From contig NZ_JH815225.1 in NCBI RefSeq assembly GCF_000238095.2, forward strand, positions 1,041,140 to 1,105,139: DNA of 64,000 nucleotides. Direction: 5' to 3'. A program made the translations under genes and the position numbers. Each line of letters starts with the position of its first letter. Within the stretch, counting starts at the first letter, position 1. Of the stretch, positions 45,844 through 64,000 are shown piece by piece. The DNA is from Peptoanaerobacter stomatis (lineage in GTDB: Bacteria > Bacillota > Clostridia > Peptostreptococcales > Filifactoraceae). The notes under the pieces were generated by a model. That model saw nothing but the letters and a program-made list of their open reading frames with translations. It ran no database searches and was not told the DNA's origin.

Positions 45844-48447
45844 TTATTCTTGTGATTCATTTTCTTCTTTCTCATCAAGGTATTTTGCACTATTCCAAAT
45901 AAACTGACCATATCCCTGTTCTCTAGCAATTTGGAAATCTTCCTGTAAGCTTGCAAAATCGTGGGTTACAAGTAAGTCTTCAATTTTATCAAGACTGCTC
46001 TTTCCTCGTTTATCACGAGTTTCAATACCTCTCAATTTTGGCATGATTTTCTGTACAATTTGGTCCTCAAAAGCAGTTCTCATTGCCTCTTTTAATTCGC
46101 CAGTCAATTCACTGTTTGTTGGAACCCATACAATCTTGCCCTTTTCGTTCTGTTTAGGCTGATAATTCATAGCTTGTCTAACAGTAGGATAATTTGCAAT
46201 GTAGTACTCAATAGACTGCCATACACGATGTCCTAATGCTCTACCAACCTCTTCTAATGCATTATTAATTTTCTGAACGATTATTCTATAACTCTCAACT
46301 TCTTTCTTTTGTTCTTCAGAAAACTCGATTGTATGACTTGTCCATGACTGCCAGGTATCCTTATGAAGTTTTGCTCTATCATCACTGATATAGTCCGTAA
46401 TAAGTCCCATTTTTGCTCTACTTTCGAGATTCTTTGGTCTAGGGAAATTAATTACAATTCCTCTATCCAAAACTTTATCTGAAAGTGACTTAGTAGTTTC
46501 GTCTTGGTTCATTGTACCTGTCCAAAGCAAAGTTCTAGAAAGTTTTAATCCATAAGGCTTTACTCCGGCACCTAATTTAACCTCTATTTCAGGCAAGTAA
46601 CTACGTGACAGACCACGTCTAGATTCCAACTTACTCAAGAATTCTGCAAAATAGTGTTCTACATGAGCCAAGTTCATCTCGTCCAAAAGGACAACGCTCA
46701 TATATTCATTGTATCTATGATCAGTTGTACACTGAACCAAAAACTTAAGTAATTCTTCTGGTTCAAACTGATTATCGATAGAATTAAAGAATCCCAACAT
46801 TGACTCCTGACTATCCCAGTTTGGTTGTACTGCCACAGAACAGAAATTCAAGCCACCAAATTCAGAATACAAACGTGGAAGTTCTGACTTACCTGTTCCA
46901 CTGACACCAGCCAATACAGTAATTGTTGACCATTCATTTATTTTTAAAGCAGTGTGGAATGCATATAGAATTCTCTTATTAAACTTAATTCCATATTCCT
47001 CACACTTCTTCCAAACATCCTCAAGCCATGCAATCTCGTCCTTCTTATTGTATCTACTATCTAATCCATCTCCAGCTCCGACCAAATCCTTTTTATCATC
47101 CATTGCACCTGTCATGATAGCAGCAATACGAGCATCTCTATCCGCCACTCTGCCTTCAGGAGTTGATAACCTAACCAATTCTTGATTTTTTGCCTCTAAC
47201 TGATTTTCTAATGACTTACATGTAGCTAATAATGATTTGTGTTCGCTACCTAATGTTCTGAATTGTGCTTCAAGCGAAGCCACTCTTCCTTGTGAATCAC
47301 TTAAATGTCTGTTTTCTTCTAACAGTCTTTCTACTTCAGCTTTTGCTTCTCTATATGCGGCTGATAATGAATCCAATTCTGCTTTATCTGATGAATTTGA
47401 TAGCTTATCTCGAAGTTGCTTATTACTGTCCTCCAACTGCTTTATTGACTGGATTAACACTTGTGGATCCTCTCCATAAGCCTCTCTGAAGCTCTTTACT
47501 AATTCGATTTCTCCAACTGTCGCAGCTAACTGTTCTCTTAAACTCTCTAATTCCTTATTCTTCGTTTCAATTAATTGATTCAACTTCTTAATAGTATCCT
47601 CTATTTTCTGGTTTACAACCTCTGTGAGATTACTATCTGCCTCTTCAATTCTTGTACGTTCTCTTTCTAATCTTCTCTTATCACGTTCTAAAACTATCTG
47701 CTGATCGAGCAAATCTTCTTCTCTTTTTTCAAGTTCTTTTTCCAAACCTTCAACCCTAGTATTTTCAGCTTGTACCCTTGCTTGCTCACTACTAAGTGCA
47801 GATTCTCCTCTTGTCAATTCAGCGGTTCTTTCTGCTATTTCAGTTTCAAGATGCTGCAGTGCTAATTCTCTTTCTTCTTTTAACTTAGCTTTTTGTTCCT
47901 CACGTTGTTTCTGAAGTTCTTTTTCACTATCTTCTCTAGCCTTCTTTAACTCCGCTTCCTGACTCTTTCTTAATGCGTCTAATTCCTTTTTAGCCTCTAT
48001 TCTAGCACCTTCAAGTTCCTTATCTAATTCTGCAATTGCCTTCTGTCTGCTCTTTTCAAATTCGCCTCTTTTTCCATCTAGTTCTGCGACAAAATCAGTT
48101 CTACTCTTTGCTTGCTCTTCTGATAATTTTGATTTAGCTTCGGCATATTCTGAGTTAATTTTTAGCTTTAAGCCTTCTTCTATAGTCTTTTCTCTTTCAT
48201 CAAGAGCCACATTTTTTTGATGAATTCTAACTGACTCTGCTTCAAGTTCACTTGCTTTTTCAGCTAATTCTTTCTGCCACTTTGCTAACTCTGTTTCTCT
48301 TGCTTCGAGAGCCTTTTTTACTGCCTCAATATCAACTTCTGGAGTTGAATCTACATCAACATTTTCAGTTTCACTCATTACTTCTGTTTCCTGCACTACT
48401 TCCTGTGAAACTTCTTGTTCAATATCCTGCTTTACTTCAGTACTCAT
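45844..48447 (-). CDS. McrB-like AAA+ GTPase with long N-terminal coiled coil
   Basis: 867 residues. About 40-430 is an almost continuous coiled coil. The AAA+ domain of the McrB type follows: Walker A GVSGTGKS (514-521), QPNWDSQESMLGFF, Walker B and the McrB hallmark LLDEMNLAHVEHYF (587-600), GTMNQDETT (644-652) and the arginine-finger region KVLDRG. McrB proteins are GTP-driven translocases that drive an McrC nuclease. The coiled coil in place of a DNA-reading N-domain is the trait of CoCoNuT-type systems. Its neighbour downstream is the DUF2357 protein. Confidence 0.88.
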   Translation of the reverse strand: MSTEVKQDIEQEVSQEVVQETEVMSETENVDVDSTPEVDIEAVKKALEARETELAKWQKELAEKASELEAESVRIHQKNVALDEREKTIEEGLKLKINSEYAEAKSKLSEEQAKSRTDFVAELDGKRGEFEKSRQKAIAELDKELEGARIEAKKELDALRKSQEAELKKAREDSEKELQKQREEQKAKLKEERELALQHLETEIAERTAELTRGESALSSEQARVQAENTRVEGLEKELEKREEDLLDQQIVLERDKRRLERERTRIEEADSNLTEVVNQKIEDTIKKLNQLIETKNKELESLREQLAATVGEIELVKSFREAYGEDPQVLIQSIKQLEDSNKQLRDKLSNSSDKAELDSLSAAYREAKAEVERLLEENRHLSDSQGRVASLEAQFRTLGSEHKSLLATCKSLENQLEAKNQELVRLSTPEGRVADRDARIAAIMTGAMDDKKDLVGAGDGLDSRYNKKDEIAWLEDVWKKCEEYGIKFNKRILYAFHTALKINEWSTITVLAGVSGTGKSELPRLYSEFGGLNFCSVAVQPNWDSQESMLGFFNSIDNQFEPEELLKFLVQCTTDHRYNEYMSVVLLDEMNLAHVEHYFAEFLSKLESRRGLSRSYLPEIEVKLGAGVKPYGLKLSRTLLWTGTMNQDETTKSLSDKVLDRGIVINFPRPKNLESRAKMGLITDYISDDRAKLHKDTWQSWTSHTIEFSEEQKKEVESYRIIVQKINNALEEVGRALGHRVWQSIEYYIANYPTVRQAMNYQPKQNEKGKIVWVPTNSELTGELKEAMRTAFEDQIVQKIMPKLRGIETRDKRGKSSLDKIEDLLVTHDFASLQEDFQIAREQGYGQFIWNSAKYLDEKEENESQE

Positions 48448-50553
48448 TTAGTTTCCTCCTATCAGTTTAACAATATCTAGCATATTATCTCTAATCTTAT
48501 TTAGAGCCTGCGTATTTACACTTAATGCCACATTGTTACCATGTTTTCTCAATTGAACTAACTGCTCAATAATCTGAACAAAATTAGCATTCTTCAGTTT
48601 ATCAACCACATCATCTTTTTGATAATACAGATACACCATTGCATTGGCACCCAATGTACCATTTTCACTCATTAATATCTGTGCAACAAAAACTTCATTT
48701 ACAGTATCAAAACTACTTGAAACTACACCCTTTTCTTTTAATTTTGAAAGAATTTCTGATTTACCTAACTGCGAATTTTTTCTTATATCCTTCAAAGCAT
48801 AATATAATGTATCCTGCATAATTCTATACAATATGTCGAAATATTCTGCTGCTTCCGGGTAATGCACCTTGTCTGGTGATACTAAAATCCATTCTTCTTT
48901 TATTGTCTCAGGCAATAAATTGTAATAATACAAGGTCCCTAATCTTTTAGAAAGACTTACTTCTGCATTCAACTTATCCTGCGAAATTTGAGATAGCACT
49001 CTTCTATTCTTCACTCCATTACTATCGCCAATGTCATAGTCTGGTTGTAATATCGTAATAAAATCAATCAACAAATCATGTATCTCTTTATTTCTTCTCT
49101 TATCTACCTCATTAGTAAAAGTCTGATGGGCTAAATCACCATGCTCTCTAAAGAGGTTACGCAAAACTCTAAATAGACCTGGTCTTTTATTAAACAACTC
49201 TCTAAATTCACACTGACTATTGTGAACCGAAGTTACAGTTGCCAGACTTAGGGCAACCCTTAATTCCGGAGTATTTGTTCTAAACATTCTTTTGATTCTG
49301 TTACTATCCAAAGAATAGAACAGTTCTTCATATCTTTCGGGATTTACAACTCCAATTTTCTCTGCCATCTGAAGCAGTGTATTGGCATTTTGGAAAGCTG
49401 TTTGATTCTCGATTATGCTACTAACATTGCTATTCATCGGATATTTTGTATCATAGTAGAATAAACTCCATTCAAAAGCTGAATAGCAATTCAGCAGAAA
49501 CTTTTTTTGTTCTGCCTGCAACATTTGATTTTCATCACGGCTTGCAAACGCATCGTTTTCACTTTCATCTTCATCATCTGAGCATTCATATACTTTTGAA
49601 AAAGAATTAATTCGTGACATTAAACTTCTAAGTTCTCGATATTTATAATTAGGTGTAACCTTCGTTTCTTCATCTGATTCTTCTTCAGTTTCTTGAATAA
49701 TATTCCTTGTAGCTCTTTCTTTAACCACTGAAATGAAATCTGGGTGGTTTTTCTTAATATAATCATTTACAAAGTCTATATTAACTACTAATCCATCTGA
49801 AACTAATATTTCATCAATATTTCCATCTTGGACAACAGCTTGCATATGAAAATACACATCATCAGAAGAAGTATTTTCAATAGCCCATTCTTGTGCATAC
49901 TCGATAGAATCAAAATTAACGTTTTCTTGTACAATTCTGTTATATTTATCTATCACCGCTCTTAATGAAGAACTTTGAAGCATCCCTTTCTTTTTATCGC
50001 CTCTGTTCTGTCGGAGAATTTTTCCCTTAATTCTTATTGGATTACCCACAGTTCCATATTCAACAGTTAACAATGACCCTTGAATATTCTCTATAGGATC
50101 TGATATTAATTCGCCTTTTTGTATGTATGGTAATATTTCTCCGGTCTGATTGATAACAAACACTTTAGCCTGAGCAAACTCAACATTTGCATCATCTGTA
50201 ATTTTTTCATCGACACGAATATATTTTTTCCCTTGCTCTGTCAAATCTCTGCCATTATCTTGAAGAAGATCCATCTCCTGTAATCTAATGATAATAAAAT
50301 TTATCAGATCAGGTGTTAGACACAATATATCGGCCATATCCTCTGATGTTGTTGTCTTATATGCAATCAGTTTCAATACAGCTTCTTCAAATACATCTAA
50401 CTTACTATCACCCTTTACCTTGACTGGCAAAATAACATCATACGAACTACATTCCAAGAAAAAATCGACTTTTTTTCCAAGCACCGAAATATTAGGAAAA
50501 CATTCCGCATAATTCTTAGTTTTGAATAAACTAAACACTTTCGGATTGGCCAT
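48448..50553 (-). CDS. winged-helix protein of the defence operon, unknown role
   Basis: 701 residues. Residues about 54-125 look like a winged helix-turn-helix (FEEAVLKLIAYKTTTSEDMA, LTPDLINFIIIRLQEMDLL, LTEQGKKYIRVDEK). The rest is mostly helical with an acidic patch near 310-340 and shows no catalytic motif I recognise. It overlaps the helicase gene by 23 bases and abuts the McrB-like gene. A nucleic-acid- or partner-binding adaptor is plausible. Confidence 0.6.
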   Translation of the reverse strand: MANPKVFSLFKTKNYAECFPNISVLGKKVDFFLECSSYDVILPVKVKGDSKLDVFEEAVLKLIAYKTTTSEDMADILCLTPDLINFIIIRLQEMDLLQDNGRDLTEQGKKYIRVDEKITDDANVEFAQAKVFVINQTGEILPYIQKGELISDPIENIQGSLLTVEYGTVGNPIRIKGKILRQNRGDKKKGMLQSSSLRAVIDKYNRIVQENVNFDSIEYAQEWAIENTSSDDVYFHMQAVVQDGNIDEILVSDGLVVNIDFVNDYIKKNHPDFISVVKERATRNIIQETEEESDEETKVTPNYKYRELRSLMSRINSFSKVYECSDDEDESENDAFASRDENQMLQAEQKKFLLNCYSAFEWSLFYYDTKYPMNSNVSSIIENQTAFQNANTLLQMAEKIGVVNPERYEELFYSLDSNRIKRMFRTNTPELRVALSLATVTSVHNSQCEFRELFNKRPGLFRVLRNLFREHGDLAHQTFTNEVDKRRNKEIHDLLIDFITILQPDYDIGDSNGVKNRRVLSQISQDKLNAEVSLSKRLGTLYYYNLLPETIKEEWILVSPDKVHYPEAAEYFDILYRIMQDTLYYALKDIRKNSQLGKSEILSKLKEKGVVSSSFDTVNEVFVAQILMSENGTLGANAMVYLYYQKDDVVDKLKNANFVQIIEQLVQLRKHGNNVALSVNTQALNKIRDNMLDIVKLIGGN

Positions 50554-53500
50554 CGTATATCACATCCTCTCCCTTACAAAGTTCATACAATCTTTTCATT
50601 CCAGGCACGCATATTTCTGCAATGCGTCCCCATTCTCCGTTGTAAAACATTTCTGTATTTCCAACAACAATTAGTAATTTTTTCTGTCTACTTAAAGAAA
50701 CACATAATCTGTTTTCAGATATTAAGAAACCGTAATTCTGCATTCCAACTTTATCGCGGTATATTTCCCACTCTTTGTATTCTTCTGATTTCTTATCAAT
50801 CTGCTTTTTATCAATTCCTTTATACTTTTCTAAATAATCGTAATTAATTGGTTCGGGTTTCGAAGTCTTATCAATTCTAACCATCGGTTTCTTATCATTG
50901 CTTCTTACTACCGATAAGAAGATTACATCAAATTCCATTCCCTGAAAGGCATCTACACTTCCTACTCGAACTCTCTTTGCATCGTCACCCAACTTGTTCT
51001 TAAGTTTTCGTTTTATGCTTTTAAATTGCTCGCTATAGAATGTGATGACTCCATAGGTAAGATCTTTACCTTCCTCCAATTTCATGTAATACTCAATTTT
51101 TTCAACTATAAAGTCAGCTTCACAATCTCTAACTCTACTTGTTCCCTCTTTATGCTCTTTACCGTATTTATCTGGAAAGTTATACCACTCCAACGGAAGA
51201 GTTTTTTGAGAAATAAACTGTTGATAATTTGATGCTGGCATAGGAGAAGCAAACTGCTCATCATTTGGTTGATAAAATACTTCATTTACAAACTCACCAA
51301 GCATAGGGTGCATTCTGTATTGAGCGTCCAAAACAATAGTTCTAGGAACATTGTCAATTTTCTCAAGTTCCTTGGCTTTCTCCAAAAGGTACTCAAACAT
51401 ACTCTTTTTGATATTGTTCATATCAACAGTTTCACCGTTTTCTTTCATACTTTCAAAAACTTCTTCATCATAAATATGAGGCAACTGTCGATGGTCTCCA
51501 ACCAAAATAATTCTCTTCTTTGCCTGTGCTAACGGAATCATTAAGTCTGCCGGGCTTACTCGTGCAGCTTCATCTACAATAACTGTTTCGTATTCAGGAT
51601 GTTCATCTGAATATTTATTTATCCCTTTAGCTTCTTTGATTTCAACACCTTCACTTTGCTGTGTAGTCGCAGAATATACAAACAAGTAATGTTCTAAAGA
51701 TCGTTCCACCTCTGATCTATTGGTTCGTAACTCTTTCAATAAATCTGCTAAAATTGCAGCCTTCTCATCTTGATGTTTTTTTACACTCTGATTTATCTGT
51801 TTATAAATCTTTGAGATTTCTTCATCTGGTACTTCTTTTTTATATGAAGGTTTAGGAACACACTTATCCAATAAATATGTTTTTGCATCGCATAATTTTT
51901 CTAATAATTCTTTACTCGGCTCTTTTCCATAACACATTGCAGCCTCATCAAGAATATCAAAAACTTTTCGGTTTTCTGGTATACTCTGGTTTATCCCCAT
52001 ATCCTCAAGATTTTGTAATAGATAATCTGCATTGTCTGCTCCATCATCCATAAAACCTTCTCTTGTAGTTCTTAATCTTCTAATAAGCAGCAATAGCTCC
52101 GAAGTCTTTTCTCCACCACTAACACTTCTTGACTCAATCATTCTACTTATTTTTTTATCAAGTTCTACATCAGTATTTATTTCCTTCGCACACTGTAAAA
52201 ATTCCAAAGCATTCTTATCACTTGGATATATTAAATACATATTATGCAAACGACTTAATCTATTTCTCTTTTCAGTTTCAATCAGTTCAGGATTTTTTGC
52301 ATTTAACCTTGCAATGTATTCTTCACACCACTCTTCAATAACTCGTTCTCTGGTAAGATCCTCTTCCCCAGCTCGATCCTGTTTACCAAATTTAATTGTA
52401 GGTAATGAATTAATTCTTAATCGTTCAATAACATTTCTTACCGCGTCATGCTGAAAACTCGTTATTAATACTTGTCCATTTACTTTCTCTCGCTTATCGC
52501 ATAATTCATTCAAACGTTCGATAATCGCAGTAATAACTGTTGTTTTTCCTGTTCCAGGAGGTCCTTGAATAATTGCAATATCTGGTGTGTTAAGTGCAAT
52601 ATCTATTGCCTTCTTCTGGGTTTCTGTCGGTTCATATTTGAAAATCTTTTCCTTCACAAAACTAGATAATGGCATTATTTTCTTTCTAGTAGAATATGCA
52701 CCTAATTCTTCAGTAAGTTGCCCCTCTAAAATCAAACCCAATGCTGGATTTGCGGCATTTCCTTCTGCAATTCTTTTTCTAGCCTCTTCTCTTCTTGCAA
52801 TCTGTCTTTCATCTCCAAAAATAGATAAAGAGACATATTTCTGCTCCGGCAGATGACCATCCTCAGTTTCTATAATAAATCCACCATTTTTTCTCTTATT
52901 GACTCTTACTTGTACTCCTTTATTAATCGAATACCCTATTTGACTTGCTTCTTTTGATAAAGTTCTGTAATCGCTCCATGTCATTTCACGGTCTGCTAAA
53001 TACACAGGTATTTCATCCGAAAAGAATAAATAAGTATCATTTGCTATCAGTTCTTCTGCTTCTTTTGTTAAGCCCGAATAAGGCAAATGAATACCTTCGC
53101 TATCAAAGGTTGCAGCTCCTCGATTTACAGTTATTAAGCCAACTTTTCGGACTTCTTCTAATAAAAGATTTCCTTCTTGTTCAGCATATTGGTTCCATAA
53201 GTCTAGATACCCTTTTGTACTCTCTAATGTTTCTTTAACCTTTTTTGAAAGGATAGAATTATGGTCAAAGAACTCTAAAGTTCCCTCCGCCATACGCATC
53301 ATTGGTACGTTCTGCTTTCTTTTTCCTATTTTTTCAACATACAGTTTTTCGTTGAATTTATCACCTTGAATAGAAACATATATGTAGAACTCGCGGCCAT
53401 AAATGACCAGTGTATCTTTCTTTTGTTTTTCCTTCTCAATAATTTGTTCTATTTTTTCTTTATCTAACTTTTCTTCTTTTTCAGATTCATTCTCTGATGC

Positions 53501-54058
53501 AGCCGATTCTTCAGTTTTCACTTCCGGCGATGGAATTTTCCCCTTATCAGCATCTTCTACTTCGTTTTCATCCTGTTCTTCAGAGCCAAAATAGTACTTT
53601 CCACTTGTATACGCAAAGTATGAACTAACTCCATCAGAAAGCTTAAAATTCTCTTCTAAAACTTGTTCTAATGTTTCTCTACCTTTAACATACTTTTTTT
53701 CAATATTACTTTTCATTTCATCACTGAGAATAACTGGTGTTTTTCCCCAACGTTGCAAATTGTAAAAGAAACCTATATGAAGGAAAAACACTTTTCCATC
53801 ATCACCGGCATCACTGCAACTAGTAACATTTGCAAGACAATAGAAGTGTCTATTAAATGACTCCATTATTAGCTTTGCGTCATTTTTATCCACAATCGAA
53901 AAATCTATAACATTGTCCTTAGTTATAAACTTAAATTGATTGTCACCAAACATTTCTACTCGACCGTTCTTCGCAACAATCTTTTGTTTAATCGTCATCC
54001 TACATTGTATATCAGTAAAACAACTATCTTGATTCATCACCAATTCATTTATTATCAT
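50531..54058 (-). CDS. SF1 (UPF1/DNA2-like) helicase
   Basis: 1175 residues. The N-terminal 470 residues hold a beta-rich region and an acidic linker (about 160-210). The helicase core follows: motif I GPPGTGKT (499-506), motif II VDEAA (828-832), motif III GDHRQLPH (854-861), motif IV QYRMHP (913-918), motif V SVDAFQGMEFD and motif VI SLSRQK. A helical insertion of about 220 residues sits between motifs Ia and II (580-800) and contains an R-x4-H string at 600-605. Its stop side overlaps the winged-helix gene and its start overlaps the kinase gene by 4 bases. Confidence 0.92.
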   Translation of the reverse strand: MIINELVMNQDSCFTDIQCRMTIKQKIVAKNGRVEMFGDNQFKFITKDNVIDFSIVDKNDAKLIMESFNRHFYCLANVTSCSDAGDDGKVFFLHIGFFYNLQRWGKTPVILSDEMKSNIEKKYVKGRETLEQVLEENFKLSDGVSSYFAYTSGKYYFGSEEQDENEVEDADKGKIPSPEVKTEESAASENESEKEEKLDKEKIEQIIEKEKQKKDTLVIYGREFYIYVSIQGDKFNEKLYVEKIGKRKQNVPMMRMAEGTLEFFDHNSILSKKVKETLESTKGYLDLWNQYAEQEGNLLLEEVRKVGLITVNRGAATFDSEGIHLPYSGLTKEAEELIANDTYLFFSDEIPVYLADREMTWSDYRTLSKEASQIGYSINKGVQVRVNKRKNGGFIIETEDGHLPEQKYVSLSIFGDERQIARREEARKRIAEGNAANPALGLILEGQLTEELGAYSTRKKIMPLSSFVKEKIFKYEPTETQKKAIDIALNTPDIAIIQGPPGTGKTTVITAIIERLNELCDKREKVNGQVLITSFQHDAVRNVIERLRINSLPTIKFGKQDRAGEEDLTRERVIEEWCEEYIARLNAKNPELIETEKRNRLSRLHNMYLIYPSDKNALEFLQCAKEINTDVELDKKISRMIESRSVSGGEKTSELLLLIRRLRTTREGFMDDGADNADYLLQNLEDMGINQSIPENRKVFDILDEAAMCYGKEPSKELLEKLCDAKTYLLDKCVPKPSYKKEVPDEEISKIYKQINQSVKKHQDEKAAILADLLKELRTNRSEVERSLEHYLFVYSATTQQSEGVEIKEAKGINKYSDEHPEYETVIVDEAARVSPADLMIPLAQAKKRIILVGDHRQLPHIYDEEVFESMKENGETVDMNNIKKSMFEYLLEKAKELEKIDNVPRTIVLDAQYRMHPMLGEFVNEVFYQPNDEQFASPMPASNYQQFISQKTLPLEWYNFPDKYGKEHKEGTSRVRDCEADFIVEKIEYYMKLEEGKDLTYGVITFYSEQFKSIKRKLKNKLGDDAKRVRVGSVDAFQGMEFDVIFLSVVRSNDKKPMVRIDKTSKPEPINYDYLEKYKGIDKKQIDKKSEEYKEWEIYRDKVGMQNYGFLISENRLCVSLSRQKKLLIVVGNTEMFYNGEWGRIAEICVPGMKRLYELCKGEDVIYDGQSESV

Positions 54059-55467
54059 TGCTTCACCTCAATTTCTAATAAATAATCATTACCATTTCTT
54101 TTATCGATAGTAGAAAGCATAAGATTTTTTGTAGAACTAAATTTTGTACTTCCATATATTTGCTTGCCTATACTATCATTCAAAAAGAAATCATATTGAT
54201 TCGAGAGATCTCCAATCTCAATTCCATCTTCTACACAAGCGATTCTTAAAACCGTCTCATCTAAGTGATTGCTGCTAAATCCCTCCAAGACTCTCAATGG
54301 AACATTAAGAACACCTTCAGATTTTTCGTGTACAAAATCCCACTTAAATTCTTTTCTATCTCCGACAATCTTGTATGCAGTAACTTTAATTACACTGTTT
54401 TCAACATCACACCACGGACAAACCGATTCCTCATTTCCGTAATAATCCATTTGGCAACATTTGCATCTTACTGTGTGATCTAATTCCTTTGCCAAAACAT
54501 ATGACCATTCTGGCATCGTTGTTCGTTTCTGCCTGTTTCTTCTTCCTGTTTCACTAAAAGTTTTTTGGAATTTCTCAAAAAGCGAAGCATTAACAAACAT
54601 CTCAATCGGCATACCTGAAAATGATCTATTACTATCATCTTCTTCATCGCATACCCAAGCAAAGGCACCAGTACAGGTATAATCTTCCTCAGGTGCATCT
54701 AACATATCAAGTTCATCCAACATCTCTGATGCTGCAAATCCCATAAATGGATGACTCATTGTCAATTCCCAAAACAATGCTATCGCAAAAGAAAAGGCAT
54801 CAGAATACATTGTCTTACCCTTGTCTTCATATATTTCAGGAACACCATAGCCGGGACTATGCAATCCTCCGTTCCTTTTCTTCATAGACTCCTTCATAAA
54901 ACTCAAATTGTCGCAGTCAATCAACCACACATGTGACATTTGAGGGTCGGCAGATACAAACATGTTTTTTTCAGATATATCACAATATACAAGTCCACTA
55001 GCATGAATTTTCGCTAGTACACATGAAGCGTTTAGAAAAGCATTCAATCTCTTACGCATTCCACCCGTTGCAATATATTTTTGTAACCTATCTCCCAAAT
55101 ACTCATTAGCCTCTTTCATGCTATTAATCCATTCATTATTTGGGAGTTCATAATCATCTCCGCTAAAGGCCTCTTCAAATGACACCATGCCATCTAACAT
55201 CTTCATGGTATATCCCACAACATCCCTTAATATCGTCTGCGGAAGAGTTAAGTTTGTATTCTCTAACATCGGTAAAATTCTTATATTATCAAATTTATCA
55301 TTATTAGATGTGTCCTTCTCTATTTCCTGCGTCATTGGATTCCATTCCAATTTAAGTAACACATTCGGTTCTTCTGTTAGATAAACAATGCCCTGTCCAC
55401 CACTACTTAACACTTTTGATGCAACATGACTTCTACCATATGTATCTACATATATATCTTTAGCCAT
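54055..55467 (-). CDS. protein kinase with C-terminal zinc ribbon (TerY-P triad kinase)
   Basis: 470 residues. The kinase fold shows a glycine loop LSSGGQGIVYL (20-30), Lys39, a catalytic loop YCDISEKNMF with Asp163 and Asn168, and an IDCDN metal-binding motif (183-187). A zinc-ribbon-like segment CKCC...CPWC (335-353) follows, then a beta-rich tail. This architecture is that of the kinase in the vWA-phosphatase-kinase triad. It is contiguous with the phosphatase gene and overlaps the helicase start. Confidence 0.88.
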   Translation of the reverse strand: MAKDIYVDTYGRSHVASKVLSSGGQGIVYLTEEPNVLLKLEWNPMTQEIEKDTSNNDKFDNIRILPMLENTNLTLPQTILRDVVGYTMKMLDGMVSFEEAFSGDDYELPNNEWINSMKEANEYLGDRLQKYIATGGMRKRLNAFLNASCVLAKIHASGLVYCDISEKNMFVSADPQMSHVWLIDCDNLSFMKESMKKRNGGLHSPGYGVPEIYEDKGKTMYSDAFSFAIALFWELTMSHPFMGFAASEMLDELDMLDAPEEDYTCTGAFAWVCDEEDDSNRSFSGMPIEMFVNASLFEKFQKTFSETGRRNRQKRTTMPEWSYVLAKELDHTVRCKCCQMDYYGNEESVCPWCDVENSVIKVTAYKIVGDRKEFKWDFVHEKSEGVLNVPLRVLEGFSSNHLDETVLRIACVEDGIEIGDLSNQYDFFLNDSIGKQIYGSTKFSSTKNLMLSTIDKRNGNDYLLEIEVKQ

Positions 55468-56179: not shown

Positions 56180-56629
56180 CTACACGCATTCATAAACTGC
56201 TTGCATAAAATCAGTTACGGAATAAACCACTTTCTCAGTAGCAATATCCTGTAAAATTGTCCTATTTGCATCAATGCCAACAAAAATAGGAATGATGTTT
56301 ACACTCATTTTTTTAATGTGTGCCTTATCTCCACTATTGAAATTGCCATCACTAACAAATATCATTGTTTGATTTTCATCTATTATTTGTTTTAATTCTT
56401 CAAGGCCTGAAAGTGGAGACCTTCCCGCAAATTCAATTTTGGCCTTTTCTAAATTATCTATTTTCTTACTTTCTTGTCCCCATTGGTACAATGCAAATTC
56501 AACATCATCAAAACCCGGGGTTCCCATTACATTACATATTCCATTTAGCAGATACTTTACTACTGCGTTTTTATCATCTTCCGCCATACTTCCAGAAGCA
56601 TCCACTACTATATTTACTGTTTTACTCAA
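56180..56629 (-). CDS. vWA-domain protein (second copy, short)
   Basis: A 149-residue minimal von Willebrand A domain. The MIDAS motif is DASGSM (10-15), with PLSGLEEL supplying the threonine-loop region (serine instead) and FVSDGNFNSGD the second acidic site. It lies 25 bases upstream of the phosphatase, the usual place of the TerY member of the triad. It differs from the vWA protein at 61,035 in length and loops, so the two are paralogues with separate roles. Confidence 0.88.
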   Translation of the reverse strand: MSKTVNIVVDASGSMAEDDKNAVVKYLLNGICNVMGTPGFDDVEFALYQWGQESKKIDNLEKAKIEFAGRSPLSGLEELKQIIDENQTMIFVSDGNFNSGDKAHIKKMSVNIIPIFVGIDANRTILQDIATEKVVYSVTDFMQAVYECV

Positions 56630-56640
56630 TGAATAACCTC

Positions 56641-59286
56641 CTATACTGAATATGGTCTAAACCATGCTTTTAACTCTAAGTTATCAACAAGGAAAGCTCT
56701 ATTCTTCTTCACTGATGCATTCGACTGCAAGCCAGCTCCTAATAAGAAATTCTTTTCATCTACATTAACCGAGTAGCCTATCCTATAATTGAATTCGTCT
56801 TTCGGAACACCACAGTTCTTAATACGGTTACTTCCTTCATAGAAGGCAATAATATAACTTCCTTTTTCATTCGCATTATCTAGATAATCTTTAAAGAAAG
56901 CTGCCTCCGACTTAGGAGTTCCATACATTATCGGTGCATAACCAATTTGTTTTGTCAAATTACAATTGTCTATTATCAGAATACATTTTTTATCAAAAGC
57001 ACATTCTGAATATTTTTCACAGAAATCTTTCATCGACCAAAAACAAACTACATTAGATATTAATGCTGTATCAATCATCTCATTGTCATCACCAACATAA
57101 ATGATTTCTTCGCAGTATTCACTTTCCAAAGCTGCCCCTATAACAGAATCCAGCAGACTCTTCTTTATCAAATCATCATGGCCACATATCAATAGATTAT
57201 CCGTAACTCGTGGTCTTAAATTAACTGAAAACGGTTCCGCGTTATAATCCATCAGTTCACCAAAAATAATCTGAAGATTAGTTCTTTGCGAAACAAATGA
57301 TTTAATAGGTCTTTTTGGAAGACTCTGTCCTTCAAATATCTTGGTTTCAGTATCTATACCGATGTCATTACACTTCTTCTCAATTTTTACAATCCACTCT
57401 GCTATTTTCTTTTCTTCTGCTCTTGGAATCATGAATTTAACATTTCCAGAAACACTTCCCTGTGATGTATTCAATATAGCGAATGGAACTTTCAGTTCTG
57501 CTGCCTCTTCGTTATTTGATGCAATTCCACCTAACAAATACTTTGAGTCTTCTGCCGAGCACTTTAATGCAACTCTTCCACCAAACTGTGGACCTAGTGT
57601 TGAAAAATCAATTCCTTTTAACGATTGAGTTGCTAACACTAAATGGATGCCACATGCTCGTCCCTGTTTAGCAAGCATTTCGAGTGTTGAAATCGTCTGA
57701 TCCTTTTGAGCATTCCCAAACAATACCTGGAATTCGTCAATTACTACCATTATTCTTGGCATTATTTCATCGGGATTCTTATCTCTATAACCTTGAATAT
57801 CTTTACAACCACAAGTTTTAAATGCGGCATAACGTTTTTCTTTTTCTTCAACCAAATGTCTCAATACAGTAATTCCATACTCTGTATCAGCTTCAGTTGC
57901 CACAAGTTTTGCATGTTTCAAGTTAGGATTTGCATACTGACTAAATTCAACACCTTCCTTGAAGTCCAACAAGTAAACTCTCATTTCATTTGGTGAGTAA
58001 CGACAACACGCACTAATAATCAAATTATGTAAGAAATTCGATTTACCAGAACCTGTTGTACCACCAATAAGGTAGTGTGGCGTTGCATCCCCTATATCAA
58101 GTTCAATAATGCTATTTCCAGACGCTCCACACCCCACCGGAATCATCAGCCCGTTTCGTGAATTACAATTGAACATTGAACCATGCTCCATAATTTCATC
58201 GAAAGACATTCCTTGGCTATTCTGCTTCTCTGCTATAGCCTTTAAATCGTCTAAAAGAACACTTAATTGATAATCATCTGGAAATTTCTCACCTACATTT
58301 TCAATTTCTAGATGTTCGAAATCATTACTAATATTATCTTCTTCAAAGACGTTGTGTAGCTGAACACTATTTTCAATACAACCTCTCAATTCAATTTCCA
58401 TCTTTTTCATTTTGCTATCTTCCGTGTTCAAAATAGCTTCATTAAACGAAAAAAGAACGAGCAAACCACACTGTTTTCCATGAACAATTAATGTTCTGAA
58501 CATATCAAAACATTCTTGATCCATTCCATCTGGGACTGCAGTAAAAATGAATATTTTATAAGGCAACATTCTTCTTAGTTCTCGTTGCGAATATAACCTT
58601 CTATTATATGAATCCCAATCCTGACAATCTGTAGCAATATTGAACACATTGCTTTGTAAATCAAGGATGTACTTCGTAACATCTTTTAATGCTACTTTCA
58701 ACTCCAAAGTAGAAGAAAGAATTTTCTTTTGAGGAAATAATCTCTCATTCGAGAACAAAGAATTGAATTTACTTACAGTCTTTCCTAATCCTATAGGATC
58801 AAAAACATAGTATTCCTGTTTATCAACGGGTAACGCAAACAAAAGCCTTAGTAAAACTTTGTGAAGAATAACATTTTTTGACTCATCACAAATATACATA
58901 GGCTTCTCAAACGGAAATGAGAAAGTCTTCGGAACAAAAAAATCCAAGTTATTGTATGTAACATGCAACTTTCCTAATGCAATATTTCTTGGAAACCTAC
59001 CTTTTGTATTAATAAACTCTGAAGACAATTCCATTAATGAAGGCTGGCTTTTGCGTATTCGTTGACATAGTCTATCTATCTTTTCCTGGTAATCTATAGC
59101 TTCATTCTTAAATCTTCTAGTTATAGATTCCTTTCTTGCCGAATACTCATCATATTCTTTATGTAAAATATGTCCGTCTGCATTTTTGTATTGTGCATCT
59201 AATGTTTCATATCTTCTATCTCTAGAAGTAATAGAATCATCTAAACAATGTAACAGACCTTCCATTGTTTCCTGGTTTTTCTCCAT
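56641..59286 (-). CDS. FtsK/SpoIIIE-type ATPase, tandem domains, no membrane segment
   Basis: 881 residues. A coiled-coil start (1-90) precedes a degenerate ATPase-like region with DPIGLGKT (163-170). The active FtsK/HerA-like domain has Walker A GGTTGSGKS (408-416), Walker B VVIDEF (514-519) and LATQSLKGID. A third ATPase-like remnant follows about residue 690. Tandem FtsK domains recall EssC of type VII secretion, but I see no membrane helix or FHA domain. It lies 11 bases ahead of the short vWA gene and downstream of the WXG100-like and nuclease-like genes. Confidence 0.85.
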   Translation of the reverse strand: MEKNQETMEGLLHCLDDSITSRDRRYETLDAQYKNADGHILHKEYDEYSARKESITRRFKNEAIDYQEKIDRLCQRIRKSQPSLMELSSEFINTKGRFPRNIALGKLHVTYNNLDFFVPKTFSFPFEKPMYICDESKNVILHKVLLRLLFALPVDKQEYYVFDPIGLGKTVSKFNSLFSNERLFPQKKILSSTLELKVALKDVTKYILDLQSNVFNIATDCQDWDSYNRRLYSQRELRRMLPYKIFIFTAVPDGMDQECFDMFRTLIVHGKQCGLLVLFSFNEAILNTEDSKMKKMEIELRGCIENSVQLHNVFEEDNISNDFEHLEIENVGEKFPDDYQLSVLLDDLKAIAEKQNSQGMSFDEIMEHGSMFNCNSRNGLMIPVGCGASGNSIIELDIGDATPHYLIGGTTGSGKSNFLHNLIISACCRYSPNEMRVYLLDFKEGVEFSQYANPNLKHAKLVATEADTEYGITVLRHLVEEKEKRYAAFKTCGCKDIQGYRDKNPDEIMPRIMVVIDEFQVLFGNAQKDQTISTLEMLAKQGRACGIHLVLATQSLKGIDFSTLGPQFGGRVALKCSAEDSKYLLGGIASNNEEAAELKVPFAILNTSQGSVSGNVKFMIPRAEEKKIAEWIVKIEKKCNDIGIDTETKIFEGQSLPKRPIKSFVSQRTNLQIIFGELMDYNAEPFSVNLRPRVTDNLLICGHDDLIKKSLLDSVIGAALESEYCEEIIYVGDDNEMIDTALISNVVCFWSMKDFCEKYSECAFDKKCILIIDNCNLTKQIGYAPIMYGTPKSEAAFFKDYLDNANEKGSYIIAFYEGSNRIKNCGVPKDEFNYRIGYSVNVDEKNFLLGAGLQSNASVKKNRAFLVDNLELKAWFRPYSV

Positions 59287-59300
59287 ACTTTCCCTTCTTC

Positions 59301-59507
59301 CTACAATATGGTTCTAAGCTCCATTAGAAGAGTCATTATCTCCATTTTTTTTACTTCGGCTTCATCCCATGCAAAATCTAATTTTTGCAAATCACCTTCA
59401 AAAGGTTCATATACATTTCTTACAATAGCGCTACCAAATGAATCATTAACTCTTTCAGAAAAAGTGGATTTACTATTGCTTAATTGACCACGAACTTCAC
59501 TAAACAT
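59301..59507 (-). CDS. small helical protein of the defence operon
   Basis: 68 residues, no recognised family. It is soluble and mostly helical, with WDEAEVKKMEIMTLLMELRT at the end. It overlaps the nuclease-like gene by 8 bases and precedes the FtsK-type gene by 14 bases. Its size and position suggest a chaperone or adaptor for the neighbouring nuclease-like protein; this is inference. Confidence 0.6.
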   Translation of the reverse strand: MFSEVRGQLSNSKSTFSERVNDSFGSAIVRNVYEPFEGDLQKLDFAWDEAEVKKMEIMTLLMELRTIL

Positions 59508-60735
59508 CTTTCAATTTCCCCTTTACAAAGTTAATGCATCTGTTATCTAAATCATCTTTTCGAGGCAGCATACCTATCATAGGAGAGCCAGCCTCTCTAA
59601 GTTTTTCTCTAAGCTCATTCTCCTTTTCTGGAGATAAATCATGTATATCTCTTGTACATATTACGCAAGAAGCATCACAACCTTTATGACCAAAAGCTTG
59701 ATCCTGCATATGACTTAACTGTTGGTATAAATACGAACTATGACCAGACTTGACTTCAACTGCCAAACTGCCACCTTTTCTTGCTCCCATACCTTCACCA
59801 CGGCCTAATACCAACGGATTTGTAAGCCCATACACAATCATATCTACCTTTGTATAGCGTCCATCCGGGAGTGATTCCCTCGCTTGTGTACTTATTTGCG
59901 TACTAATTGGCTTAAACGCCCTTATAACAATTTCTTCACATAGTCTTCCGACCATCTGTTTCTTAATCTTTAACTCAGCACCTGCTTCATTTCCTATTTT
60001 CATTTCATTGCAGTAGCTATCAACATTAGCTCTAAATCCCATATCTGTAGCATATAAATACTCCAAAATGGCATCTACTACATTCTCATCAACATCAAGT
60101 TTGTCTCTAATTTCATTAGGGCGAACAGGTGTATTTTCTTCCGGTTTCTCATTAAACCATTTATCAAGGCTATTTCTAACGTCCGGTGCAATCCTTGATA
60201 TATACTTTTGTAAGTCTTGATATGCAAGATTCAACCTTGCACATCCCCTATCAACCGTGACCTCAATGCTTCTCTTCCCCGCTTCAAAATGCATCTGTAA
60301 GGTATCATGTCTTTCTTGTGCAAGGTTCATAGCCTTGACGGCCATTTCATATCTTCTTTCCAATGCTTCGCGGTGTCTAACTGCTTCCTCATATTCTTGT
60401 CTAGCAGGAACCAATTGAGACTCTATATCAGCTATCCTAGCTCCCACTGCTGCCATAGCAATAGGATCTGGAGTAACTGCTGCCAACTCTGCAAGAGCGG
60501 CCGCAAGTCTAGCCTCCAGTTCAATTACAATGGCATGTTTAGCCATCTCAACTCCCTTAGCGATATCAAGCATGGTCTTGCTAGTTTGCTCCTCCGCTTG
60601 AGTTTCCTCTAACAACTGCCTTGCTTGATTGAGTCCATCATTGCAAGTATCAAAGGAGCTATTTTTAATTTGACTTAATTCCTGTGCAGCATTACTTATT
60701 GCATCAACTTCAAAAACACTTGCAGCCGTACTCAT
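59500..60735 (-). CDS. coiled-coil protein with C-terminal PD-(D/E)XK nuclease-like domain
   Basis: 411 residues. Residues 1-175 are a helical, Ala/Glu-rich coiled coil, and about 200-240 looks like a small winged helix (VRPNEIRDKLDVDENVVDAILEYL). The C-terminal domain has the restriction-endonuclease pattern: EEIVIRAF (267-274), TKVDMIVYG with Asp298, and LAVEVKSG with Glu327 and Lys329. That is D-x28-E-x-K, followed by a conserved-looking QLSHMQDQAF helix. It is a candidate effector nuclease of the operon. A WXG100-like gene lies directly upstream. Confidence 0.75.
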   Translation of the reverse strand: MSTAASVFEVDAISNAAQELSQIKNSSFDTCNDGLNQARQLLEETQAEEQTSKTMLDIAKGVEMAKHAIVIELEARLAAALAELAAVTPDPIAMAAVGARIADIESQLVPARQEYEEAVRHREALERRYEMAVKAMNLAQERHDTLQMHFEAGKRSIEVTVDRGCARLNLAYQDLQKYISRIAPDVRNSLDKWFNEKPEENTPVRPNEIRDKLDVDENVVDAILEYLYATDMGFRANVDSYCNEMKIGNEAGAELKIKKQMVGRLCEEIVIRAFKPISTQISTQARESLPDGRYTKVDMIVYGLTNPLVLGRGEGMGARKGGSLAVEVKSGHSSYLYQQLSHMQDQAFGHKGCDASCVICTRDIHDLSPEKENELREKLREAGSPMIGMLPRKDDLDNRCINFVKGKLKDV

Positions 60736-60744
60736 ACTATTTCA

Positions 60745-61014
60745 CTACCTTCCCAAATATGTACTTAAATCTTCCGCCATTGTTCTTAAATGTGGAATCT
60801 GTTCAGACGCATTCTCCTTAAAATTCTGAAGAGCATTAATCAGCTGCTTATAAGTTTCTTCAAAACTAGTTCTCTGCTGATCCTGCCAAGACTCTCCTAA
60901 CTGTTCAAAAGCAGAATTAAGTCTTCCTGTTTCTTCCTCTACGGTATTCAAATAATGTTCAAGTGAATTTGAAAAGCTTCTGATCTCCTCTGGATCGCCA
61001 ATTGCCTGTGCCAT
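60745..61014 (-). CDS. WXG100-like helical hairpin protein
   Basis: 89 residues with two amphipathic helices around LGESWQDQQRTSFEETY, a W-x-D variant of the W-x-G turn. The length, the F...W...F spacing and the helical ends fit the WXG100/ESAT-6 fold. A strong GGGAGG ribosome site precedes the ATG. It lies 9 bases upstream of the nuclease-like gene and close to an FtsK-type ATPase. In type VII systems such proteins escort effectors; here no membrane apparatus is visible. Confidence 0.75.
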   Translation of the reverse strand: MAQAIGDPEEIRSFSNSLEHYLNTVEEETGRLNSAFEQLGESWQDQQRTSFEETYKQLINALQNFKENASEQIPHLRTMAEDLSTYLGR

Positions 61015-61034
61015 CGTTCATTCCTCCCTTAGAA

Positions 61035-61727
61035 TTAATACAAATCATCATCGTCATCGTTAGCGATATTGTTATCATACTTTGGTGCAGTTGAAGGAGT
61101 AGGTACGCTATTTGAATTAGGTGCTGTAGCCATTGTAGAAATAGACATACTAATTGTCTTAAACTGCTCTGAAATATCCTTTGCATCTTCAGCAAATAAA
61201 ACTGCATTTGGATCCTGTATAAATCTCTCAAGAACACTTCTGTCTGCATCATTACCAATAGCGACAGCAAATCTCTGACATTTTGCAGAACGTCCATCAT
61301 TAATGAACTTATCCATAGGTCCTTTCCAATCATCATTTGGAGCGCCATCAGAAACTAACACAACAGCAGGACGATAAATTCTTGAAGGTGTTTCATTCTT
61401 GTCATCAATCATGTCCTTCGCCATTCTTAATGCAGTTCCCATTGGTGTCATTCCTGAAGCCTTAAACTTACTAATGCCTTTTGCCTGTAAATCTTTCACA
61501 GGAGTATATCTGGTATGTAAATCAACACTGTCACCAAATGTAATAATAGCAACATCTATAATCTGTTCTTTTGCCTGAGCAGCAGCAAATGTTTCAATCA
61601 TATCAATGGTTGCGTCATACAAGCTATCAATCTTTGCTCCACTCATACTTCCACTTACATCAAGTAATAAAATAACCGGTAATTTTTTTGCTTCTGGTGC
61701 TTTGTAATTGTTTGGATTAAATGCCAT
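61035..61727 (-). CDS. TerY-like vWA-domain protein
   Basis: 230 residues. vWA domain with MIDAS DVSGSMSG (23-30), threonine loop GMTPMGTAL (92-100) and acidic loop VSDGAPND (125-132). The tail is disordered and ends in a run of six or so aspartates (NIANDDDDDLY). This is the TerY type, a metal-dependent scaffold. An AGGAGG ribosome site precedes the ATG. There are no TerC/TerD/TerZ genes nearby, so tellurite resistance as such is unlikely. Confidence 0.88.
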   Translation of the reverse strand: MAFNPNNYKAPEAKKLPVILLLDVSGSMSGAKIDSLYDATIDMIETFAAAQAKEQIIDVAIITFGDSVDLHTRYTPVKDLQAKGISKFKASGMTPMGTALRMAKDMIDDKNETPSRIYRPAVVLVSDGAPNDDWKGPMDKFINDGRSAKCQRFAVAIGNDADRSVLERFIQDPNAVLFAEDAKDISEQFKTISMSISTMATAPNSNSVPTPSTAPKYDNNIANDDDDDLY

Positions 61728-61799
61728 CTTCGTTTCCTCCTAAATAATTTAATAAGTGATTATATAATATCTGCATGACACATATTGTCATATAAATAT

Positions 61800-63203
61800 T
61801 TAAAACATTAGTTTCTCAATTATAGACGATAAGTTCATACCTGCTCGCCCATCACTACAAGTTTTAGCTGCTGTTGCAACATATCGATGATCTCCGTAAT
61901 AAATCCACTTATAATGCCTTCCATCATCGCTTATTTCAAAACCTAAAGTTTCAAGCAATCCTTTTAAAGAGCCGTTCAAATTTTTATATCCTTTTAAGGC
62001 ATTCTTTAATTGTTCCTTTCTTTTTTCTGGCAATCCCTTAAACTCATTGCTTTCTAATAAGTCAGAGATAATATGCCATCGTCTTGAATCTTCTTTACAA
62101 TTCTTTTGATACTCGGACATAATATCTAATACAATTTCTTTTATCTCATCAGTGTAAAACTCTCTCTCGTCTCCTAGATATAGAACAGGACTTTTGTCCT
62201 TATCTGAATATCTCATTCTTAAACCTTGCAGTTCTGCATTCAAACGTTGCACTTCATTACTTAACTTAACATTTGACTCCTCCATTTTTTCGAGTTGTTC
62301 ACCAAAAATGTCATACAAATTATTATTCTCTTCTTCAATTGCGCTTTGATTTGACAATAACTTTTTATTTTCTATATGAAGTTTTTCAGTTAACACCCCA
62401 TCCCACGTATCTATCGCTTTACGTATTCTTGAGTTCATATAGTTATAAACATCATTAACTACTCTATCTTCTAAATAATCTGCGTCTTGGCATGAACCCG
62501 TCAGATTAAGAATTCGACTTTTTTTATTATGACTAGGATAATATAAAAATATTTTCCCTGCTCTAGCGTCATTGCTATCTAAAACATCTGAAAATCCTGT
62601 TAGCTCAATACCATCCTCTGGCTCACATATTACATGCGCTACTCCTTGCAATTTAAATGCCAACTTATTTACATCTAGAGGATTGTCACCCATACTCGTT
62701 CTAGCCACATAAACCACAGGCAATTTTGAAATTATTGTTTTATCTACAACACCCTTAAAAAATGATAGGCACTCTAAAATGCTATGTTCCCTATTTAAAA
62801 CCATTATCCCATTATCATCACCTGAAAATTCTCCAAAAATAATCATTTTAACAAAAAACGGTTGGTAATATGTAGGAAAAAAATCTGTAGTAAATTCTGT
62901 AGTTTCCAATGTTGCTGAAATAGAAAGCATCTTATTTGCATTATCTAAAACAAAATCAGTACACTAAACTCCATGTTCATCTTCCTTCTGTAGTCTTGAA
63001 GCTATGATTCCTTTTTCCTGAATTTCTTGTAGCGACAAAACTATATTCTCTTGTTTCCATGAGCAATTAAAATCAGTTTCATCCCATGCTAAGTCATTAA
63101 TTCTGTCATATTTGCTTCCCTGGTTCCACCTAATGACCATTTTAACAAATTCACTTTTTGTCAAAGAATCATTTATTGTAAATTTTGTAGTATAGGTAAC
63201 CAT
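61800..63203 (-). pseudogene. HicA-like-tailed defence-operon protein, split by an in-frame amber stop
   Basis: One frame of 467 codons interrupted once, by TAG at 62,964-62,966. The first part runs MVTYTTKFTINDSLTKSEFV to KEDEHGV; after the stop it continues CTDFVLDNANK and then about 376 codons. The second part has PVVYVART...QGVAHVICE (about 75-140 of the 376), a coiled coil (about 190-240), and a HicA-like end (DGRHYKWIYYGDHRY...SDGRAGMN). Related proteins, as I recall them, read G-V-x-W-T-T-D-F here, so TAG probably replaced TGG. Start at ATG 63,203 after GGAGG. The downstream part could restart at ATG 62,930. Confidence 0.75.
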
Positions 63204-63216
63204 ATTAAATGCCTCC

Positions 63217-63423
63217 TTAAATTTCATCTGCATTTGGTTTCTTTACATATTTTCCCGATTTGACTCTTTCATCTTTTGGTTTCTGTACATCTTCTGGTAT
63301 TGCCCAGGTATTTCCAAATTTAATTGCCCCTTCTATGCGTCCTTCTAAACATAAAGTATTGATTCTTCGTTCCTTGATTCCCCATTTTTCTGAAATATCT
63401 GAAATTTTTAAATATCCATTCAT
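63217..63423 (-). CDS. small helix-turn-helix protein
   Basis: 68 residues. An excisionase/MerR-type HTH shows LKISDISEKWGIKERRINTL, GRIEGAIKFGNTWAIPEDVQ and KPKDERVK, the pattern of small HTH proteins that head restriction-like operons in Clostridia. First gene after the operon promoter with an AGGTG ribosome site, so it may be the operon's own regulator. Confidence 0.85.
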   Translation of the reverse strand: MNGYLKISDISEKWGIKERRINTLCLEGRIEGAIKFGNTWAIPEDVQKPKDERVKSGKYVKKPNADEI

Positions 63424-63675
63424 AATTCACCTCACTGATACAAAAAATAGACACACCCTTCCCTATAATTGGAAAAAACTGTATCTAATCAATACTGCAA
63501 CTGGCTGACATTCAACAGTCCCTGTAGTTTTGCATCATACACGTTCTCGTGATTTGCCACAATATCCCACTAAAGAAAATTATATACTTTTATTCGCACA
63601 ACGTCAATTATTTCTTATATGTTTTGCGTTAAATTATATATATTTGTTCTATTCTTTTATGTATTTTGCACAAAT
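63424..63675. other. operon leader and upstream spacer
   Basis: About 250 bases without a gene. It contains the consensus promoter at 63,579-63,607 and a transcribed leader of about 148 bases before the HTH gene. The leader has no clear hairpin, riboswitch or leader peptide that I can support. Confidence 0.5.
63579..63607 (-). promoter_or_regulatory. consensus sigma-A promoter of the defence operon
   Basis: Minus strand TTGACG (63,602-63,607) and TATAAT (63,579-63,584) separated by exactly 17 bases. All downstream genes are closely packed, so this one promoter could drive over 21 kb. Confidence 0.8.
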
Positions 63676-63882
63676 TTAAATTGTAGCTTTTGCTCCACTC
63701 TTAAATTCAATAATTAATCGCTCAATCCCATACACAGTTATCTGTTCAATAAGACTTCTGACCAATCCGTCATCAAGCTCATCAAGTTCTGTCGTCTGCT
63801 TATTTAGGAAAGCTATAAGTTCTTCCTTCCTCATCTGTCTTCCCTTATATTCTACAATAAAAACTGTACTATATTTTGTCAT
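63676..63882 (-). pseudogene. C-terminal remnant of a serine site-specific recombinase
   Basis: A 68-codon frame whose last 50 residues (RKEELIAFLNKQTTELDELD, LVRSLIEQITVYGIERLIIE, FKSG) match the C-terminal tail of large or Tn-type serine recombinases, which end L-V-R-x-L-I-E-x-I-T-V-Y...F-K-S-G. No resolvase catalytic domain is present upstream. It may be a remnant or a separately translated tail; ATG at 63,882 or an internal ATG 16 codons later are both possible. Confidence 0.6.
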
Positions 63883-63980
63883 ACATTACTTAGCTACAAC
63901 ATATAGATTTGGATCTATACTAAAAAAGTAGACAAAAAGATGAATACTAGGATATAATAAAGTAGACAAAGGAAGGTGTT

Positions 63981-64000
63981 ATGTTTATGCAAAAGAATTA
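63981..64000 (+). CDS. start of a gene cut by the window edge, possibly an IS transposase
   Basis: ATG at 63,981 after GGAAGG (63,971-63,976), reading MFMQKN before the window ends. Upstream, AAAGTAGACAAA occurs twice (about 63,927 and 63,960). ACTAAAAAAGTAGACA resembles the end of IS3-type elements. Too short to identify. Confidence 0.3.

Follow-up and report, generated by a model that had tools for sequence, protein, structure and literature searches.

Background

Type III-A CoCoNuTs with an EssC-like 5' extension have been described in PMC11090510, and the gene order given for these EssC-extended systems in the accessible part of that article is the one found in the operon studied here, at 63423-41841 on the minus strand. 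For the fragmented CoCoNuT genes of Helicobacter two readings exist in the accessible parts of the literature, conditional translation being proposed in PMC11090510 and deletion together with gene disruption in PMC4978471.

We analysed a window of 64,000 nucleotides from Peptoanaerobacter stomatis, meaning by this the whole stretch of DNA under study, in which the operon carries a gene interrupted by an in-frame TAG. We conclude that a recent single-base nonsense mutation has most probably inactivated the accessory gene heading a Type III-A CoCoNuT-like operon that is otherwise open. The event itself is an ordinary mutation; what is interesting is its place, a large and otherwise intact anti-virus cluster.

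Results

Gene content of the operon

All genes of the operon other than the broken one are open. Scanning genome contigs gave, among 32 pattern-matching stretches, two relatives of the broken gene, one in a Lachnospiraceae bacterium MAG (L004; 94% identical) and one in a bacterial MAG (L005; 72% identical), each as one frame at the same position at the operon head. The L005 genome has the same core with uninterrupted frames at 70 to 78% identity, and the L004 contig ends within CnuH. The features of the window are as follows.

63579-63607, minus strand: promoter-like TTGACG-17-TATAAT upstream of the operon; in the corresponding position L004 has TTGACA-17-TATAAT
63217-63423, minus strand: small HTH protein, also in L004; Pfam HTH_17 below cut-off
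61800-63203, minus strand: accessory gene of 467 codons with one in-frame TAG; HEC-07-like N-terminus, coiled coil and C-terminal domain as in phrog_2053
62964-63203, minus strand: 5' fragment of 79 codons, with the strong ribosome-binding site TAAGGAGG
62964-62966, minus strand: amber codon 80; TGG in L004 and L005, W in 8/8 uninterrupted homologues
61800-62930, minus strand: longest ATG-started ORF past the stop, 376 aa; ATG without ribosome-binding site
61764-61791, minus strand: promoter-like ATGACA-16-TATTAT and inverted repeat TGACA-N5-TGTCA, between the broken gene and VWA1
61035-61727, minus strand: TerY-like VWA protein 1 (VWA1), 230 aa
60745-61014, minus strand: WXG100-family protein, 89 aa; Pfam above cut-off, no literal WxG motif
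59500-60735, minus strand: 411-aa protein with a D...ExK nuclease-like motif (LAVEVK) and a predicted coiled coil
59301-59507, minus strand: 68-aa protein, no Pfam match
56641-59286, minus strand: FtsK/EssC-like ATPase, 881 aa, one Walker A motif
56180-56629, minus strand: VWA protein 2 (VWA2), internal and shorter, 149 aa
55468-56154, minus strand: PP2C phosphatase
54055-55467, minus strand: protein kinase-like (below Pfam cut-off), two CxxC motifs (zinc-ribbon-like)
50531-54058, minus strand: CnuH-like SF1 helicase; Pfam AAA_11 and AAA_12 above cut-off
48448-50553, minus strand: CnuE-like protein; RxxxxH (487) and RxH (669) motifs
45844-48447, minus strand: CnuB-like protein; coiled coil and McrB-like NTPase, NxD motif NQDE at 647
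41841-45785, minus strand: CnuC-like protein with DUF2357 (36.1 bits against a cut-off of 23.3)

Promoter-like sites are not more numerous in this region than in shuffled controls. The inverted repeat TGACA-N5-TGTCA, in the gap at 61728-61799, is kept in L004 and not in L005, and is possibly an operator. At E 1e-100 the FtsK-like protein was found in one of 393 genomes of the order, namely its own, and VWA2 has, by eye, no middle threonine. The best PADLOC models are MkoA (3.5e-88) for the helicase and MkoB for the CnuE-like protein, whose motifs RNKEIH (487) and RKH (669) are short pattern matches that REH (469) fits too. The CnuB-like protein has the Walker A motif GVSGTGKS, a weak coiled-coil match and Pfam AAA_5 below cut-off, and a Pfam scan detected no Hsp70-like or HEAT-like domains in the CnuC-like protein.

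IS3-like transposase frames, named by eye, lie upstream of the operon from about the window's end (L059, 2221-3275). A short frame at 63676-63882 resembles the end of the frame upstream of the L004 operon, which we take to be recombinase-like; the operon may lie within a mobile-element remnant. Downstream of CnuC, a frame at 38998-40392 looks reverse-transcriptase-like by eye and probably belongs to a group II intron.

One gene with a single amber codon

The frame at 63203-61800 (minus strand) counts 468 codons including the terminal stop, and its only stops are codon 80 (TAG, 62964-62966) and codon 468 (TAA); the amber codon, at the place originally predicted, is the sole disabling change and elsewhere the frame stays open. 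In alignments the two halves keep register with the single, uninterrupted 467-residue frame of L004 (94% identity) and of L005 (72%), and are therefore one gene and not two chance ORFs, as the original prediction held. The positions that it gave for the frame and the stop stand as well; its start at 63233, an in-frame ATG that lies upstream and overlaps the end of the HTH gene, gives way to ATG 63203 as the probable start, with TAAGGAGG, a strong ribosome-binding site, 8 nt upstream. The amber codon falls within the HEC-07-like N-terminal region, and no second copy of the gene was found in the organism's own genome.

Eight uninterrupted homologues were available for comparison: L004, L005, a Klebsiella plasmid copy (L006), a Skermanella plasmid copy (L011), G477 and G514 from 391 genomes of the class (three matched, the own genome included), and G637 and G855 from 398 genomes of the phylum (five matched, the own included). 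The column aligned with codon 80 is W in all eight, in agreement with a tryptophan expected at or next to the stop, and the codon is TGG in L004 and L005, the two near homologues, so that the single G-to-A change that had been proposed (TGG to TAG) accounts for the break. None of the homologues found is split at this point.

The phylum matches G823 and G896 are not full-length and stand outside this set. Three stretches with E 6.7e-4 to 9.0e-4 and unrelated neighbours (L002, L003, L015) were judged chance and excluded from the count; also excluded were L014 and L018, which share the C-terminal domain alone (frames of 97 and 108 aa). This domain is thus also seen as separate frames of about 100 codons. 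The downstream half, compared with 198 relatives, gave three matches, the own genome and two judged chance. Among ten plasmid records, five carry the entire Klebsiella gene, 100% identical and in the same place, and were counted as one homologue, the Skermanella plasmid is a separate one, and CP052273 is listed as two places; CP109708 and CP109709 hold about a quarter of the gene each, and a Citrobacter plasmid copy, in two places beside Tn4401 and blaKPC-3, is described only. The homologue of L006 (641-2062) lies on 5.9 kb ColRNAI Klebsiella plasmids, adjoins a RelE/ParE-family toxin gene and carries no functional annotation.

The viral contigs scanned held no relative of the broken gene and the phage records searched gave no match. 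The family is rare and scattered. At E 1e-30, an FtsK-like gene is absent from G477, G514, G637 and G855, where the homologue therefore stands apart from this operon. The broken gene would thus be a plug-in module, occurring also away from the operon on small Klebsiella plasmids, on a Skermanella plasmid and in four other genomes.

Family of the broken gene

HEC-07 is a PADLOC candidate defence family, HEC standing for Hma-embedded candidate (PMC12988326, accessible part). Its models match seven of the eight uninterrupted homologues at E up to 0.1 (best 2.3e-14), with partial coverage of the 553-position model, mainly by the N-terminal 200-odd residues, whereas the coiled coil and C-terminal domain of the broken gene's family fall outside most of these matches. 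In their C-terminal 60 residues, all four proteins scanned match phrog_2053 (best 1.6e-12), a phage family of 72 positions with no assigned function. A weak HicA-like match appears in two of the eight members (best 7.1e-4), and 'HicA' does not occur in the main text of PMC11090510. On the strength of the HEC-07 match and the weak HicA-like match, the intact protein might, as a tentative guess, be a sensor or effector acting on RNA or the translation machinery. The AlphaFold model of the L004 protein (four rows; mean pLDDT 44) was unusable, a PDB profile search returned coiled-coil and weak matches only, and four of six function-telling RNA or protein features were weak. Literature searches on HEC-07 and on disabled defence genes found no relevant paper.

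TAG as a stop codon in this genome

Searched with the Rfam tRNA model, the own genome yielded 46 matches among the 150 candidates scored out of 174, and a CUA anticodon occurs in none of the 46 tRNA genes named by ARAGORN (46/46) in the fetched stretches; as contigs end at tRNA clusters and 150 of the 174 candidates were scored, a tRNA in an assembly gap could be missed. PylS had no match in the own genome, in a search whose control gave matches in 13 of 14 known genomes, above cut-off in one. TAG terminates five operon genes in the window as well as in L004, and in L005 it ends three of the five. Since no TAG-reading tRNA is among the 46, PylS gave no match and five genes end in TAG, we regard TAG as a real stop here; a suppressor tRNA and pyrrolysine decoding were both searched for in the own genome and not found.

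Selection and timing of the loss

Against L004, the broken gene has a whole-gene dN/dS of 0.042, a value inside the span of 0.012 to 0.115 seen in the other nine genes; selection thus acted on the protein during most of the window-L004 divergence. Parsimony with L005 as outgroup assigned 12 of its replacements to the window lineage and 3 to that of L004, with 13 unplaced, against 39 and 38 for the eight other genes with an L005 counterpart. This window-lineage excess is marginal (binomial p 0.035, Fisher p 0.048), many of the replacements are conservative and the distant outgroup makes parsimony crude; it is suggestive of a recent relaxation and weakly supports a real, recent loss. At face value, an excess of about nine replacements is what about 6% of the window lineage without constraint would give, so the loss would be recent. 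Identity to L004 drops within the gene from about 94% to about 81%, and silent divergence from L004 is far lower in codons 1-79 than beyond; from these two observations, the gene is possibly a recombination mosaic.

The amber codon was read from the assembled sequence alone and a single substitution separates the frame from an open one, as would also be the case if a base-calling or assembly error had been made and the gene were intact in the organism. We consider such an error improbable. The alignment of the region with L004 spans 10,048 columns and contains 9 gap positions, and ten of the ten comparable genes have the same length as in L004, so that the assembly is not visibly error-rich, and a sequencing error would not yield an excess of replacements, marginal as it is, on the window lineage and confined to this gene.

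Restart and read-through

Restart or read-through of the stop codon could in principle give two working proteins, or a little full-length protein, as a long ORF of 376 aa follows the stop and codons 81-467 show strong purifying selection when the entire divergence is considered (dN/dS 0.034); this selection seems, however, to predate the stop. No ribosome-binding site was found before the restart ATG 62930, and further on the best candidate is AGGTGAT ahead of codon 134, 12 nt off. Folding after and around the stop is no better than in shuffles (z 0.26 and 0.93), which argues against programmed read-through by way of an RNA structure, and a CUA tRNA was not found. Rfam gave no match within 60000-64000. 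Among the homologues found, none consists of two proteins with the same break. Two products or leaky full-length synthesis are therefore very unlikely, and the tuning by read-through or restart that had been envisaged goes without support, there being no CUA tRNA among the 46 genes named, no ribosome-binding site at the restart ATG and no stable RNA after the stop.

Read-through confined to conditions such as phage attack, giving full-length protein and a translational switch for the CoCoNuT head gene, is hardly credible: conditional decoding is suggested in the accessible part of PMC11090510 for fragmented Helicobacter Type III-A CoCoNuTs, the same system type, but here the interruption affects a single gene rather than many, and only one of the three genomes with the operon, the L004 and L005 copies being without the stop; the 2016 pan-genome study PMC4978471, in its accessible part, attributes the broken state of the Helicobacter TerY-P clusters to deletion and gene disruption.

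Discussion

A recent loss is the most likely explanation, a sequencing error is less likely and a regulated stop unlikely. In the scenario that we favour, a TGG-to-TAG change occurred recently, in this strain, at the invariant tryptophan codon 80. Translation would end after 79 residues, inside the HEC-07-like region, so that no functional protein would be made, and the untranslated message might lose some transcription at a weak terminator-like site inside the gene (62200-62187). The rest of the operon would be expressed from the upstream promoter, perhaps also from one before VWA1, and as the broken gene appears to be a plug-in module also found away from the operon, the CoCoNuT core may continue to work without it. 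To call the whole operon disabled, as the original prediction allowed, exceeds the evidence: every other gene of the operon has an open frame, purifying selection acts on the nine that were compared with L004, and promoter-like sequence precedes VWA1. The locus would offer a clean early case of gene loss in a defence operon, with two intact relatives by which to date it.

Comparison with known systems

Judged from its sequence, the operon agrees in most respects with the EssC-extended Type III-A CoCoNuT as published. Shared with the system as set out in the accessible part of PMC11090510 are the CnuH-CnuE-CnuB-CnuC core and the TerY-P triad, the two VWA genes flanking the FtsK/EssC-like ATPase, with the internal VWA the shorter, and the WXG100 and D-ExK nuclease-like proteins. 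CnuH is defined there as a UPF1-like SF1 helicase and CnuB as an McrB-like GTPase with an NxD motif and a coiled coil, and the genes found here agree with both. In the published ATPase only the central site is active, and here one Walker A motif is present in 881 aa. The same part of the article gives two WXG100-type proteins and, following the nuclease fusion, a further small protein, whereas this operon has two small genes (89 and 68 aa), one fewer; CnuC is there an Hsp70/HEAT fusion, neither being detected here by Pfam, and CnuE has two HEPN domains (RxxxxH and a C-terminal RxH), of which we see short pattern motifs only. Another difference is the extra 5' gene, broken here, which heads the EssC-type CoCoNuT operons in all three genomes found and is not mentioned in the accessible part of PMC11090510.

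The TerY-P triad islands of Helicobacter pylori (PMC4978471, accessible part) likewise combine TerY, kinase and PP2C with WXG, FtsK and helicase; in those islands several genes are missing and gene disruption is reported, whereas here a single codon is affected. The present case thus bears on a published puzzle, the fragmented Type III-A CoCoNuT genes that PMC11090510, in its accessible part, considers a possible instance of conditional decoding: for a single stop in the same system type, the explanation found here is an ordinary one.
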